Below, piece by piece: positions 2,507 through 10,214 of a stretch of 32,945 nucleotides of DNA. The position numbers were made by a program, and so were the translations under genes. The notes under the pieces were generated by a model. That model saw only the letters and a program-made list of their open reading frames with translations, did not search any database and was not told where the DNA came from. Source of the DNA: Alphaproteobacteria bacterium (GTDB lineage: Bacteria > Pseudomonadota > Alphaproteobacteria > Rs-D84). The stretch covers positions 1 to 32,945 of the forward strand of contig JAFURS010000012.1 of NCBI GenBank assembly GCA_017471805.1, written 5' to 3'. Within the stretch, counting starts at the first letter, position 1. Every line of letters begins with the position of its first letter.

Positions 2507-3460
2507 TTATTCTTCACTTTTTTCACTGTCTTCGATGTATTCTACATCGGCCGCATCTTCACGCAACAGAAAATCGATAAATGCACGCACAACCTTGAAC
2601 GGGCCGACAACCGGCAGGGTCATTATCTTGCCCACAGTTTTGATGATATTATCTTTGTCGACGTCTGGTTCGCCAAGTGCATTTTCACGCCCCAGGAAAT
2701 GTTTTTGATATGCGGCATTCATTTTGCGTGTTTCAATCATTACAAACACATCGTATGAATTAAACGGCGCATCAACAAATACACCACGACCAAATGTCGC
2801 CCCCAGGCGCAAATACCCCTTAATCAGTGGGGTCATTTCAGATTTTGCATCCGCTTCGTCAACAAATTCACGTGGCAAAATATTCATTCGTGACAGTTTT
2901 TGATTTACACCATCTGCAAACTTTTCCGACAAAACCGTCGCACGCAGGCGCATTGGGGACAAGTGATTGTAATACAGATATGATATTGCCTGGGCGCTGC
3001 GTGCGGGTTTGGTCCCGACAAAAGATGCCACCCCAAACAACACACCAATTTTACGACGCATAATCATTTCGCCAAGCCCAGCCCACAACATTCGCATAAC
3101 CAGCGCATTGTCACGATATGATTTTTCAACGCAGGCACGTGACATTTCGGCAATGTTGCCACGATATTTTTTTATCTTGGAAATATTAAATTCGTTTTCT
3201 GTGTAAAATCCGCCCATCTTTTCCGCAGCACGACGGTCAATAATACGATATGTCCCGACAACACGTCCCTGATGAAACACAGCCATATATTCCGCAAAAC
3301 GGTCATAGGCATCATATTCTTCGCCCAATGCACGTTGTTCTTCGGTGGCGGCGGCCCCTTCTTCCAGGCAGAATACTTGATAGCGTAATTGGCGCACCTG
3401 TTTACGTTCTTCTTTGTTTCGGGTTAATCGAACCTCGAAATCACGGATTTTAATTGCCAT
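2507..3460 (-). CDS. olsB: OlsB-like L-ornithine N-alpha-acyltransferase (hemolysin-type GNAT)
   Basis: First step of ornithine-lipid synthesis: transfer of a 3-hydroxyacyl chain from acyl-ACP to the alpha-amine of ornithine at the inner membrane. The 317-aa protein shows the family pattern: RQLRYQVFCLEEGA near residue 23, YDRFAEYMAVF, GTYRIID, FYTENEF, EMSRACVEKSYR, then a C-terminal PLIKGYLRLGA and FNSYDVFVMIE. The start is supported by an AAGGA Shine-Dalgarno sequence 8 bases upstream. It heads a three-gene operon with olsA and proS. The alternative is a generic acyl-homoserine-lactone-like GNAT, which the olsA neighbour makes unlikely. Confidence 0.88.
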   Translation of the reverse strand: MAIKIRDFEVRLTRNKEERKQVRQLRYQVFCLEEGAAATEEQRALGEEYDAYDRFAEYMAVFHQGRVVGTYRIIDRRAAEKMGGFYTENEFNISKIKKYRGNIAEMSRACVEKSYRDNALVMRMLWAGLGEMIMRRKIGVLFGVASFVGTKPARSAQAISYLYYNHLSPMRLRATVLSEKFADGVNQKLSRMNILPREFVDEADAKSEMTPLIKGYLRLGATFGRGVFVDAPFNSYDVFVMIETRKMNAAYQKHFLGRENALGEPDVDKDNIIKTVGKIMTLPVVGPFKVVRAFIDFLLREDAADVEYIEDSEKSEE

Positions 3461-3534: not shown

Positions 3535-3563
3535 TTGATTTTTTTATTCAAGACATTTATTAT
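3535..3563 (+). promoter_or_regulatory. Sigma70-like promoter for the 3570-3739 RNA
   Basis: TTGATT (3535-3540), a 17-base spacer and TATTAT (3558-3563) predict a start near 3570. It faces away from olsB, toward the structured RNA and the polysaccharide genes. Confidence 0.6.
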
Positions 3564-3569
3564 TTGTTT

Positions 3570-3739
3570 GTCACAGGGTGTTCCTGGGATGGGCATAAGA
3601 ACCCAAATAACGTGTCAGAGAAGACAATAAAATCTCCAACCGTGGGTTGGAGTACGTCGAATATATTGAATAAGGCGTGCAATTCGTTATGTTGTTCTTA
3701 AGCTCCAACCACCAAGTTTTAGTCTTGGTGTTTTTTTTT
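3570..3739 (+). ncRNA. Predicted multi-stem structured RNA (sRNA or regulatory leader)
   Basis: No ORF occupies this stretch, yet it has its own promoter and terminator and folds compactly by eye. P1 pairs 3591-3602 with 3694-3705 (one A-A mismatch) and continues with ATAACG 3607-3612 / CGTTAT 3685-3690. Inside P1 are P2 (3613-3616/3623-3626), P3 (CTCCAACC 3634-3641 / GGTTGGAG 3645-3652) and P4 (3653-3658/3674-3679). The sequence CTCCAACC recurs at 3703-3710, beside the terminator stem, so the P3 3' strand could pair with either copy. The roughly 170-nt length recalls 6S RNA, but the branched fold does not fit 6S. It may be a free sRNA or an attenuating leader of the gene at 3760. Not matched to a known family. 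Confidence 0.5.
3710..3739 (+). terminator. Intrinsic terminator 20 bases upstream of the glycosyltransferase gene
   Basis: CACCAAG / CTTGGTG (7 bp, 7-base loop) is followed by nine T. No ORF on this strand ends here, so it closes the 3570 RNA or acts as an attenuator for the downstream operon. Confidence 0.8.
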
Positions 3740-3759
3740 CAAAAAAATAGGGGCTAAAA

Positions 3760-5100
3760 ATGAATGTTTCTAAAAAACTGCAAGAATACTGTCCTAGTGC
3801 AAGCAAGGTAAAAAAACACTATCCTAAACTACTGAAAAACAGCATCTTTTTGCTTTACACAGACGCCAAGGATTTTGTAATGAATGCCGTTATAAATATT
3901 TTCTGCTTTTTAATCCCGTTTCCTAAAATGCGACGCAGGGTGCGCAATAATCTGAAAAATAAATGGCAGGCGAATAAAAATAATCTGGGGCGATTCAAAA
4001 GGTATCTGACGGGGCGGCCGATAATACTGTGGGTTGATCACGCACTGGGCGGCGGGACCGAAGTTTATTCAAAACGACAATTCAAAATACTGAAAAAAGA
4101 CTATGACGTCATTCGATTGCAATATTTTCCCAGAACAGAACTGTATCACATCACAATGGCAGATAACAAAAATCATATATTCACAACACGAAATATGGAC
4201 TTGATTTTTGATTTCTGTACAGGACTGGGGATAACTGAAATTGTTGTTAATAATTTGGTAGCGTATAAAAACACACTGGAAGTGTTAAAGAAAATCAAAG
4301 AACTTAAACAGCAATGCGTGGGCAAGCCAAGCGTTTCATTTCGTGGTCACGATTTTCAGGCAATTTGCCCCAGTTTTAATTTGATTAACTGTGATGGGAA
4401 ATACTGTGCGGTAAAATACAATGGCGGATGCGAAGAATGTTGGCGACGCAAAAAATTATCAGACGACCCCATATCGCACAATGTCTTGAAATCAGGCGCA
4501 GACAAGATTTGTGTATGGCGTCAGGTTTGGGGTGATTTCTTTGCGAATGTTGCCGACGACGTTATTCTGTTTTCAGGTGTGATTGAGAAAATATTCGCAG
4601 GTGCATACCCGCAAATAAAATCCAAGGTTCGTATTATTCCGCATAGTGTGCGCCTGTTTCGAAAGGTTAATGTAAAACCACACACGGATATAAACATTGC
4701 CGTTCTGGGGAATATTTCGCATAACAAGGGCGCAAATGTCGTTTGCGAAATGGCAAAAAACATCCCAGAAAACACAAATATTATTGTTGTCGGAACAATG
4801 AAGGGCGCACCAAAAAATATAACTGTGCACGGGGCATATAAACAAAATCGGTTGCCACAGATAATGGAAAAGCACAGGATAGATTTGGTCTTAATCCCGT
4901 CAATTTGGCCTGAAACATTTTCATACACAACATCCGAAGCAATTTCAATGGGATTGGCGGTGGCCTGTTATGGTATTGGGGCGCCCGCAGAACGTGTTGA
5001 ACAGTATGACAAGGGATTGGTTCTGGATAAAATATCGCCGGATGAAAATTTAACACAAATTATAAATTTTGTTAAAAGACTAAGGGAAAATGCACAATGA
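3760..5100 (+). CDS. GT-B glycosyltransferase (GT4-like) of a surface polysaccharide cluster
   Basis: Transfers a sugar from a nucleotide-sugar donor in the cytoplasm during cell-surface glycan assembly; donor and acceptor are unknown. The 446-aa protein has a basic N-terminal extension, a Rossmann start with the GGGTE glycine loop (97-101), a Cys cluster at 203, 211, 216, 224 and 227 that could bind metal, and a C-terminal GT4-type domain (VLGNISHNKGA, PSIWPETFSYTTSEAISMGLAV). The Cys cluster is also seen in some other glycosyltransferases of such loci. Its last bases overlap the next start (ATGA), showing coupling. It is the first gene of a four-gene run preceded by a terminator and a structured RNA. 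Confidence 0.8.
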   Translation: MNVSKKLQEYCPSASKVKKHYPKLLKNSIFLLYTDAKDFVMNAVINIFCFLIPFPKMRRRVRNNLKNKWQANKNNLGRFKRYLTGRPIILWVDHALGGGTEVYSKRQFKILKKDYDVIRLQYFPRTELYHITMADNKNHIFTTRNMDLIFDFCTGLGITEIVVNNLVAYKNTLEVLKKIKELKQQCVGKPSVSFRGHDFQAICPSFNLINCDGKYCAVKYNGGCEECWRRKKLSDDPISHNVLKSGADKICVWRQVWGDFFANVADDVILFSGVIEKIFAGAYPQIKSKVRIIPHSVRLFRKVNVKPHTDINIAVLGNISHNKGANVVCEMAKNIPENTNIIVVGTMKGAPKNITVHGAYKQNRLPQIMEKHRIDLVLIPSIWPETFSYTTSEAISMGLAVACYGIGAPAERVEQYDKGLVLDKISPDENLTQIINFVKRLRENAQ

Positions 5101-7622: not shown

Positions 7623-8667
7623 AGTGCAGATAATCCGCAAGTTCGGCAATCGCAATTGCATACCAATTTGAATTGTTCCATTTCTTGATTCGATAGAAAT
7701 TCGGATAGGTCAAATATGCCGTTATAACCGGCATCGGGGCAATATCTGCGTCCATACCCGCACCTGTTTCAATTGGGGCGTTGCGAATGTCTTTAATCGC
7801 TGCAATATCCGCAACCAGCCCCGCCGACATCTCATTTTGCGGAATTGGCGAACCGTCTGGATTTACAACACCCATTGCCGCCCACTGGGGTAAAGATAAC
7901 TTGGTCTTGCCGTCCAGCAACGATAAATCAAAGTCGGCTGGCAACGTGACACGGCGCACAATTCGTTCGTTCTTGTTCCAGCCCAGTTTGTTCAAGTAAT
8001 TACCAGCACTGAACATTGCATCGCCAATATTATTTATTATGTCAACACGGCCGTCCCCATTGCCGTCAACCCCATATTGCGCCAAGGTCGTTGGGATAAA
8101 CTGAAAATGCCCCATTGCGCCCGCCCAGGACCCAGAAATACTACCAATGTCCAGATTGTTTTTATCTGCAATCTTCATAAGCGCAATTAACTGATTTGTA
8201 AAAAATGTTTCACGGCGACCATCATACATAAGCGTCAAAAATGCATCTACCAGTTTATGCCGGGCCTTGACCGCACCATAATTAGATTCCATTCCCCAAA
8301 ATGCCAGAATTATATGGGGCGGAACACCATACTTGTTTTCAACACGTGATAACATTGTCGGATATGTCGTGCGCATTTTCTGACCGTTGCGAATCCGTGA
8401 TTGACTGACCGTGCGTTCCAGATAACCATCAAGCGTTAATTTGAATTCAGACTGATTTTTATCACTGCGGACAATTGACGGAATAAAGGCAGGATTGCGC
8501 AATGTCTGCTTTATCACAGCGTCTGATATGTTTTCAGATGCGGCACGTGTGCGCACAGAATCCAACATAGAATACCACCGGTCTGTGTCAAATGGCCCAC
8601 GTTCGGCACGCACCGTCAACGGCATACAAACAATTGTCGCAATCAGCCACATTGGAATCAAACGCAT
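7621..8667 (-). CDS. MltB-type lytic murein transglycosylase
   Basis: Cleaves the MurNAc-GlcNAc bond of peptidoglycan in the periplasm, forming 1,6-anhydro ends. A signal peptide (MRLIPMWLIATIV...TVRA) leads into the SLT_2/MltB domain. The catalytic Glu is in FWGMESNYG (E127 from this start), followed by WAGAMGHFQFIPTTL and NGDGRVDIINNIGDAMFSAGNYL. The usual C-terminal peptidoglycan-binding domain is not seen. The ATG at 8667 is chosen over 8679 because a GGGGGCT sequence precedes it and it starts the signal peptide directly. It follows the outer-membrane protein gene by about 20 bases and probably shares its mRNA. Confidence 0.88.
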   Translation of the reverse strand: MRLIPMWLIATIVCMPLTVRAERGPFDTDRWYSMLDSVRTRAASENISDAVIKQTLRNPAFIPSIVRSDKNQSEFKLTLDGYLERTVSQSRIRNGQKMRTTYPTMLSRVENKYGVPPHIILAFWGMESNYGAVKARHKLVDAFLTLMYDGRRETFFTNQLIALMKIADKNNLDIGSISGSWAGAMGHFQFIPTTLAQYGVDGNGDGRVDIINNIGDAMFSAGNYLNKLGWNKNERIVRRVTLPADFDLSLLDGKTKLSLPQWAAMGVVNPDGSPIPQNEMSAGLVADIAAIKDIRNAPIETGAGMDADIAPMPVITAYLTYPNFYRIKKWNNSNWYAIAIAELADYLH

Positions 8668-8687
8668 AGCAGCCCCCATCGTTAATA

Positions 8688-10214
8688 TTAAAATGAATAT
8701 TTAAAGCCCAGATGCAACCCAAATGATTGCCAGGTCGCACGCTTTAATGAATCAGAAACCTTTTCCGTATGGGCAGGAACCGTTTCCAATAATGGAACAT
8801 AATATACATTGCCAGATTCATCAAAAACTTCTTCCATAACGTATTGACCATTTTCGTCAATTACATACTGACTGTATTCAGCAATGTATAATTCGCCGGG
8901 AATCTTGCCAACGTGGAACAGGTTTGTATCAACCTTTAACGCCAACTGCAAACGGTTTGTCAATCTGTAATTATATTCCATTTCCGCCGCATATGAATAG
9001 GCGCCATTACTGCCTTCGTCCAGGAAACTGGGATTCTGTTGCCAGTCTGTGCGATTTGGCCATATCCCCTCAGACGAATATTTAGGCAAACCAAACTGCA
9101 TATAGAAGCGCAATTTATCCTTTAATGTCATCTGCTTTTCTATTTCCAAACCAACATAAAATCCAGACCAGGTTGTGTTATATTCGTGGGTCGTTCCTTC
9201 GACAATAACAGGGCCGTCACCGCCAATTATCACACATTCGCCCGCACTAACCCCCCAGGGAATATTACCCATAGATATTTCGTAATCGCCCGTCACCAAC
9301 GAATCCCCCAGGTATGGAAACCCTTCCAGGCTGGTGCCGGTTGATGCGTTTGTGACCACCTTGATATCTTCGGGGGACATACATACCTGATACCAATCAT
9401 CGGGTGCTTCGACCCCGACTGGAACAGAAAAATATTCGCCTAATTCATTTCCGAAAACATAATGCCCCTGGTCCGTCATTAACGGTAGATAAATTCCAGG
9501 ATTCGGATAATGATGGTTGGACATTTGCAGGTTATGCTTAAATATCTCGTATCCAAAGGTTGGGGACAGTTTCCAACCGCCAATATCCCAAATATGATGC
9601 GCAGATACACCAAATCTAAAATGATTACTGCGTCCAGACTGATCCCCCATTGAAATCGTAAATATACCATAGCCTGGGTCAGACGCATCAAACGGCTTTA
9701 AGTCATAGTCCATTGACAATCCACCACCGGACATACGACCATAGGCATATTTGCCATAGACAGACAAATCAACATTACGCAAACTAAAATTATGATGGGC
9801 GCCAACGTGGATTTCATTCCACAGCATATCATCCCATTCCAAAATAGAATTTACACCCGTTTCAAATTCAAAATCGGAAAAACGACGGGAATAGCCAACA
9901 TACATTGCCGTGGCAGGTTCCATTTCAGCGGGTATTGCAATACCATTGGCGGTCATTGTGCCAACAAATGTTGGTTCTTGGACCTGGGGACGTGGAACCT
10001 GATACGAATAAGAACGTGAACCGACAACCTGTTTATTGCCAGACTTTCCAACGTATTTGGTATATCCCTGGTCGGCATATTGACCATATGCCATCTGGTT
10101 TGCAGTCGGCGCAGACGATGTTTGATAATATGCAGGAACACCTTCGTTCGCAGCAAATGCCGCAAGCGGTGCGAAAATCCCCGACAAAAATAGAATTGAC
10201 CTTGCCTTCATCAT
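8688..10214 (-). CDS. Predicted outer-membrane beta-barrel protein of unknown role
   Basis: A 508-aa protein with an N-terminal signal peptide (ARSILFLSGIFAPLAAFA) and many alternating amphipathic strands rich in aromatic residues and Gly, such as NVDLSVYGKYAYGR and WKLSPTFGYEIF. It ends in FGLHLGFKYSF, with the terminal Phe typical of BAM-inserted barrels. Long loops, including one with two Cys at about residues 279 and 329, may face outside. No porin or transporter family is recognised. Two ATGs are adjacent (10214, 10211); both are close to a TATAAT (10228-10233), giving a very short leader. It is co-oriented with the MltB gene, suggesting an envelope operon. Confidence 0.7.
   Translation of the reverse strand: MMKARSILFLSGIFAPLAAFAANEGVPAYYQTSSAPTANQMAYGQYADQGYTKYVGKSGNKQVVGSRSYSYQVPRPQVQEPTFVGTMTANGIAIPAEMEPATAMYVGYSRRFSDFEFETGVNSILEWDDMLWNEIHVGAHHNFSLRNVDLSVYGKYAYGRMSGGGLSMDYDLKPFDASDPGYGIFTISMGDQSGRSNHFRFGVSAHHIWDIGGWKLSPTFGYEIFKHNLQMSNHHYPNPGIYLPLMTDQGHYVFGNELGEYFSVPVGVEAPDDWYQVCMSPEDIKVVTNASTGTSLEGFPYLGDSLVTGDYEISMGNIPWGVSAGECVIIGGDGPVIVEGTTHEYNTTWSGFYVGLEIEKQMTLKDKLRFYMQFGLPKYSSEGIWPNRTDWQQNPSFLDEGSNGAYSYAAEMEYNYRLTNRLQLALKVDTNLFHVGKIPGELYIAEYSQYVIDENGQYVMEEVFDESGNVYYVPLLETVPAHTEKVSDSLKRATWQSFGLHLGFKYSF

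Follow-up and report, generated by a model that had tools for sequence, protein, structure and literature searches.

The stretch of DNA analysed here, referred to below as the window, comprises 32,945 nucleotides of contig JAFURS010000012.1 from an alphaproteobacterium of the Rs-D84 lineage. It carries a glycan cluster whose first gene (3760-5100, forward strand, ATG at 3760) encodes a glycosyltransferase (Glycos_transf_1; Pfam PF00534, E = 4.8e-13). Directly upstream, on the same strand, positions 3568-3739 hold one member of a family of structured RNAs. The anatomy common to this family runs, 5′ to 3′, from a -10 box through helices P1-P4, a 5′ copy of a repeated segment, a middle strand, P6, P7, the 3′ copy of the segment and a terminator to the ribosome-binding site and start codon. 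In the window, a sigma-70-type promoter-like site (TTGATT-17-TATTAT) lies at 3535-3563, its -10 box being conserved at the same place across copies, and we infer that transcription would start at about 3568-3571. The RNA ends in an intrinsic terminator (3710-3739) with the stem CACCAAG-TTTTAGT-CTTGGTG at 3710-3730 and a run of nine T residues to 3739; it stands 20 bases before the glycosyltransferase gene, as an earlier note on this DNA had reported. A purine-rich, Shine-Dalgarno-like AGGGG (3749-3753) can be read 5′ of the start codon.

The helices of the window copy were evaluated against 122 aligned copies. Hairpin P1 (3571-3577 with 3583-3589) covaries in all seven pairs, with 96% of cells paired. 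The GGG/CCC hairpin P2 (3591-3593 with 3602-3604; 97% of cells paired) presents its loop to a pseudoknot helix (3596-3601 with 3695-3700), in which 99.2% of cells are paired, all six pairs show two-sided changes and several pairs show all four Watson-Crick types. P3 (3607-3611 with 3686-3690) has its 3′ strand inside the P7 loop; its inner four pairs are 97.7% paired and all covary. P4 (3613-3616 with 3623-3626) is absent from short members and enlarged in long ones, and is 97.9% paired where present. Hairpin P6 (3654-3658 with 3674-3678) covaries in all five stem pairs, and its loop GAATATATTGAATAA (3659-3673) is near-invariant, with several letters conserved at 92-100%; the GAAUAUAUUGAAUAA within it recurs across the family. 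Such near-invariant unpaired nucleotides are as expected of a candidate binding site. P7 (CAAT/GTTG, 3680-3683 with 3691-3694; 96% of cells paired) becomes CUAU/AUAG in other members, the pair 3681-3693 being AU in 69 copies and UA in 44. The long closing helix of 3591-3612 with 3685-3705 that the earlier note had drawn resolves into two covarying helices (3596-3601 with 3695-3700, and P3). That note had not mentioned the two pseudoknots, for both of which covariation is very strong.

Between these elements lie the three segments on which the proposed switch depends. The 5′ copy CTCCAACC (3634-3641) can pair with the middle strand GGTTGGAG (3645-3652) to form P5a (3634-3652), the proposed OFF, or terminating, state. 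Alternatively, the middle strand (3645-3653) can pair with the 3′ copy (3702-3710) to form P5b (3645-3710), the proposed antiterminator and the closing helix of a P5b/P6/P7 junction. The earlier note had located CTCCAACC at 3634-3641 and again at 3703-3710, and its partner at 3645-3652, correctly in both sequence and coordinates. The region 3570-3750 folds at -54.9 kcal/mol (z = -4.25), and none of 200 dinucleotide shuffles did as well. Nested folding of the window copy gave -52.1 kcal/mol with P5a against -42.6 kcal/mol with P5b; this preference is consistent with termination as the default, in a calculation that does not count pseudoknots.

A DNA search within the same family recovered homologues from 116 of 142 genomes, and on alignment these proved to be one module repeated upstream of different genes. 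By covariance model (R1), 128 of 142 genomes from the order carry the RNA; these are host-associated Alphaproteobacteria resembling Candidatus Enterousia and Rs-D84, and Candidatus Enterousia avistercoris is one of the named records carrying loci. Enterousia has been placed in Rs-D84, an order of reduced-genome, host-associated bacteria (PMC12306168). With R1 the source genome carries six copies, and six genomes that were searched more thoroughly yielded 49, 25, 24, 14, 14 and 6; a broader model (R2) found 52 copies in one 1-Mb relative and 34 in another. Beyond the order, 28 of 385 genomes matched at class level, in 16 families, and in a phylum sample of 398 genomes matches were confined to alphaproteobacteria and added one further family, so that distant copies are known from about 17 other alphaproteobacterial families. 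An exact-pattern scan of genome contigs with CCAACCGTGGGTTGGAG returned mostly unrelated inverted repeats when checked with R2. At 12 loci the RNA forms tandem arrays of two to four copies, 51-109 nt apart and in the same orientation, with -10 boxes before individual copies. In one of these (L116, 70-859) four tandem copies stand 5′ of a single small HTH-like gene.

The covariance search of homologues that the earlier note had proposed revealed very strong covariation, P2, P5b and P7 included. Pairing was counted on 37 copies for two structures, which differ in whether the middle strand is paired with the 5′ copy to form P5a (A) or with the 3′ copy to form P5b (B); both lay far above shuffled and slid controls. 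For structure B in 122 copies (44 pairs), 94.7% of cells were paired, against 42-45% when partners were slid, and 42 of the 44 pairs showed two-sided changes. The covariation score reached 0.669, compared with 0.183 ± 0.005 after shuffling and 0.065-0.082 after sliding. Compensatory changes, whose absence had been named beforehand as grounds for abandoning the fold, amounted to 1359 double-change cells against 380 ± 19 in shuffled alignments of the 122 copies. The alignment of these copies (A3) was fitted to the nested structure of R1, which consists of the P2-loop pseudoknot helix, P1, P3, P4, P5a and P6; P2, P5b and P7 lie outside the search model, and the support for these three is therefore not circular. 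P5b is even under-counted in A3 because the members with longer copies are out of register.

Both alternative helices have been kept by evolution, which bears out the earlier observation that the middle strand can pair with either copy. A P5b of 9 bp or more can form in 113 of the 122 copies and in every one of the 40 distant ones, compared with 10-11% of shuffled sequences; for a P5a of 7 bp or more the figures are 111 of 122 and 37 of 40, compared with 32-36%. The three segments change together between members, for example from CTCCAACC/GGTTGGAG/CTCCAACC to CTCCTGACC/GGTCAGGAG/CTCCTGACC. Since the length of P5b is nearly constant while that of P5a varies from 4 to 11 bp between members, these data suggest that P5b is part of the conserved core, with P5a as an adjustable platform. 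In some distant families (genomes G324 and G347) the 5′ strand reaches the 5′ strand of P6, CTACCTTTTTGCC pairing with GGCAGGAAGGTAG, and P5a would therefore disrupt the core itself.

A terminator-like stem is found in 121 of the 122 copies and in 37 of the 40 distant ones. In 83 of the 122 members the 5′ arm of this stem shares 4-5 nt with the 3′ copy, and among the 37 distant members with a terminator 28 show an overlap of 4-6 nt; once P5b is formed, the median terminator energy rises from -8.8 to -0.8 kcal/mol. That the 3′ copy touches the terminator stem, as the earlier note had remarked, holds for the window too, but there the overlap is a single nucleotide (3710), where most homologues have 4-5. 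Its terminator would keep -6.5 of its -8.3 kcal/mol with P5b formed. Among the glycosyltransferase-linked copies, including that of the window, CACCAAG/CTTGGTG forms a shifted terminator, which in most cases shares only 1-3 nt with P5b. These copies may be weaker switches, or they may use the adjoining helices differently; the shifted terminator leaves the family-level case untouched. Because of the 1-nt overlap, switching is the least certain part of the account of the window copy.

Taken as a whole, the element is probably a cis-acting, riboswitch-like transcription attenuator in which a ligand tips the balance between P5a and P5b. Transcription would begin just 5′ of P1. By default, the 5′ copy would be paired with the middle strand in P5a, the terminator would fold and RNA polymerase would halt before the gene (OFF). 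A signal that stabilised the pseudoknotted core (P2 loop, P3/P7 and P6 loop) would lead the middle strand to pair with the 3′ copy instead; P5b would then close the P6/P7 junction and remove the 5′ arm of the terminator, and the gene would be transcribed (ON). The ligand that may tip the balance would most likely be a small molecule with its binding site near the P6 loop, and binding would be expected to mean ON because P5b is part of the core and removes the terminator. The fold switch foreseen in the earlier note is supported by the covariation, the alternative helices, the position before genes and the competition with the terminator. On this comparative evidence, a structured, switching, cis-acting RNA family is well supported; we infer strongly that most of its members would control termination and more weakly that the window copy does, and the sensing of a small molecule by the family is plausible. 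Several points speak against the ligand-tipped attenuator: the terminator is shifted in the window copy and its glycosyltransferase-linked relatives, nested folding has a strong preference for P5a, dozens of copies per 1-Mb genome with very mixed targets are unusual for metabolite riboswitches, and the target genes do not indicate one ligand.

Taken alone, the promoter reported by the earlier note does not stand out from chance (3 matches found, 4.6 expected). It becomes credible because the -10 box is conserved across copies: a box with at least five of six matches lies just upstream in 107 of 123 copies, compared with about 28% in shuffled sequence, and these boxes mostly end 3-5 nt 5′ of the core.

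The genes downstream were surveyed in a second set of copies. In 65 of the 84 copies with an ORF, an ORF with a Shine-Dalgarno sequence and start codon lies 34-60 nt downstream in the sense direction, and several of the remaining copies are upstream members of tandem arrays. Of the 41 targets with 120 aa or more, 36 begin with what a crude rule scores as signal-peptide-like, compared with 29 of 157 other ORFs at the same loci. Pfam and NCBIfam assignments include HTH/XRE regulators, outer-membrane beta-barrels, Opacity, Surface_Ag_2 and an adhesin family, with glycosyltransferases, RgpF, PilS/bundlin-like pilins and a YadA anchor in other genomes, and many targets are exported cysteine-rich proteins that belong to no family. 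The target list looks like a surface-remodelling regulon. Short copies (126-136 nt, with P4 reduced or missing) stand before small HTH/XRE paralogues at L120, L130, L133, L136, L138, L139, L143 and L168, and long copies with an extra GC-rich arm before exported cysteine-rich proteins; each type of RNA seems to be duplicated along with its gene family.

c-di-GMP riboswitches (GEMM) likewise occur in many copies per genome before exported, pilin-like or surface targets. The present family resembles GEMM-I and GEMM-II in this type of regulon, that is, in copy number and in its surface, exported and pilin-like targets, but it has no Rfam match, and six genomes from the window's own family that carry it have no GGDEF protein. 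No such protein (PF00990) was detected in G000, G010, G023, G036, G065 or G072, which hold 6-49 copies each, while control genomes did match. With genomes so heavily loaded lacking GGDEF proteins, c-di-GMP is an unlikely signal, and we rejected it as the ligand in the family of the window; more distant carriers do have GGDEF proteins.

A comparison with Rfam, also suggested in the earlier note, gave no match: with cmscan at curated thresholds against Rfam 15, neither the window RNA nor 20 loci of diverse members gave any hit other than tRNAs, and at E values up to 10 there were only weak, chance-level matches. 6S RNA, our first idea from size and structure, was rejected, since RF00013 matched nowhere in the genome and nothing in Rfam matched at the locus. 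Phage and plasmid records held no DNA match to the window copy or to a copy on viral contig L202, and no description turned up when open-licence literature was searched for the motif sequence and for similar candidates. The passages searched in two Breaker laboratory screens (PMC8632094 and PMC11109978) describe no motif with such anatomy. The candidates there are, like ours, structured leaders found by comparison, and the odc1 motif is also alphaproteobacterial and pseudoknotted; however, as described in PMC8632094, odc1 consists of one hairpin plus a pseudoknot and has an upstream ORF, unlike the multi-helix family of the window.

Like riboswitches generally, this RNA is structured, conserved and placed in the 5′ leaders of genes. 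Mutually exclusive helices with a terminator, as in an expression platform, are found in most members and only marginally in the window copy, where the overlap is 1 nt. In classical terminator-type riboswitches such as SAM-I, and in purine ON switches, a closing helix, an alternative strand and a terminator similarly compete for strands, but the present family has two pseudoknots, a P5b/P6/P7 junction with the GAAUAUAUUGAAUAA loop and no Rfam match. T-box leaders share the multiple copies per genome and the choice between terminator and antiterminator; membership of that class was rejected, as the Rfam T-box model is not matched and the targets are not aminoacyl-tRNA synthetase or other amino-acid genes. 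Riboswitch-like attenuators are thus a known kind, of which the window RNA belongs to an apparently undescribed family.

Several other explanations were weighed. The attenuator could work as proposed but respond to a protein, or to another RNA, bound at the junction and the conserved P6 loop. Control of so many copies by one regulator, and the small HTH genes among the targets, would suit a global RNA-binding regulator, and a near-invariant single-stranded loop could be where a protein binds. However, no RNA-binding protein emerged as a candidate, and a base-pairing RNA would hardly be expected to use strands as variable as those of P3 and the pseudoknot. Covarying pseudoknots flanking a conserved loop are commoner in ligand aptamers, and the two found here fit that pattern better; we regard a protein or RNA signal as unlikely, though not negligibly so. 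An RNA that senses by itself, through folding kinetics, temperature or Mg2+ acting on the P5a/P5b balance with no dedicated ligand, is improbable: mutually exclusive helices would suffice for it and host-associated bacteria do meet temperature changes, but the near-invariant loop letters and the conserved pseudoknots would then be superfluous.

The earlier note had also allowed for a free small RNA, here a multi-copy family with the downstream gene incidental. Each unit does have its own promoter and terminator, even in tandem arrays where each copy has a -10 box. We favour the attenuator because of the fixed 34-60 nt sense position before ORFs and because the terminator overlaps and competes with the switching helix; exposed sequence, moreover, is conserved only in the P6 loop, and a free small RNA is very improbable. 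There seems still less reason to see the RNA as a mobile repeat or duplicated promoter cassette carried along as gene families spread, without any part in regulation, although up to 52 copies per genome, tandem arrays and copies on viral contigs would fit one. Structure and alternative pairings were kept despite strong sequence divergence, orientation and gene distance are fixed, and no terminal repeats or transposase were noticed, in a search that was not systematic. Leader-peptide attenuation, which depends on the ribosome, is scarcely credible; it shares competing hairpins and a terminator with the preferred mechanism, but no upstream ORF is conserved. A Shine-Dalgarno-preceded upstream ORF was present in 25 of 123 leaders (0.20), the same as in shuffled leaders (0.20), and attenuation through such ORFs was rejected for this lack of enrichment.

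The ligand-tipped attenuator preferred here may be of wider interest. Tentatively, and with a little less than an even chance of being right, it could be a new riboswitch class that responds to a ligand for which no RNA sensor is known yet and runs a global surface-remodelling regulon without c-di-GMP in reduced-genome Alphaproteobacteria, and that phages have adopted for anti-repressor genes. The regulon of such a class would take in exported cysteine-rich proteins, outer-membrane barrels, adhesins, pilins, glycan enzymes and small HTH regulators. One RNA class would then be a main surface regulator in gut bacteria that are widespread but uncultured, with its ligand as the signal they use. 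The scale is unusual: as many as 52 copies are found in a genome of 1 Mb, frequently as tandem arrays and mainly before exported, surface and regulatory genes. The question of the ligand can be tested on synthetic RNAs with no need for culture.

Strong matches were also found on IMG/VR viral contigs (L193, L196 and L197). On two further IMG/VR contigs the RNA lies immediately 5′ of Bro-N/anti-repressor (Ant) genes (L202:1311-2333; L253:4100-5114 and 8662-8851), and one of the two carries the RNA twice, adjoining an integrase; the best phage relatives of the integrase beside these copies are from Gammaproteobacteria. The L202 and L253 copies show further compensatory changes, with CTCG/CGAG in P7 and GGTGGTG/CACCACC or GGTGAGTG/CACTCACC in P5b.

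The glycan genes behind shifted-terminator copies share an N-terminal tag, YCPSA...Y, seen in the window (3760-3830) and at L002:1703, L003:1483(-), L004:1473(-), L007:1695 and L011:1615. The tag varies to NCPSA in L003 and YCPGA in L004 and is followed by different catalytic domains (GT1, GT2 and RgpF), as if RNA cassette and short tag had been fused to different enzymes. In the window, the divergent gene upstream of the RNA (2507-3460) encodes a GNAT acyltransferase related to autoinducer and N-acyl amino acid synthases (Acetyltransf_5, Autoind_synth, FeeM), and another acyltransferase gene (1685-2503) adjoins it. Further downstream, an ORF at 8688-10214 matches the Protochlamydia outer membrane protein family (PF17251), which is unexpected for an alphaproteobacterium.
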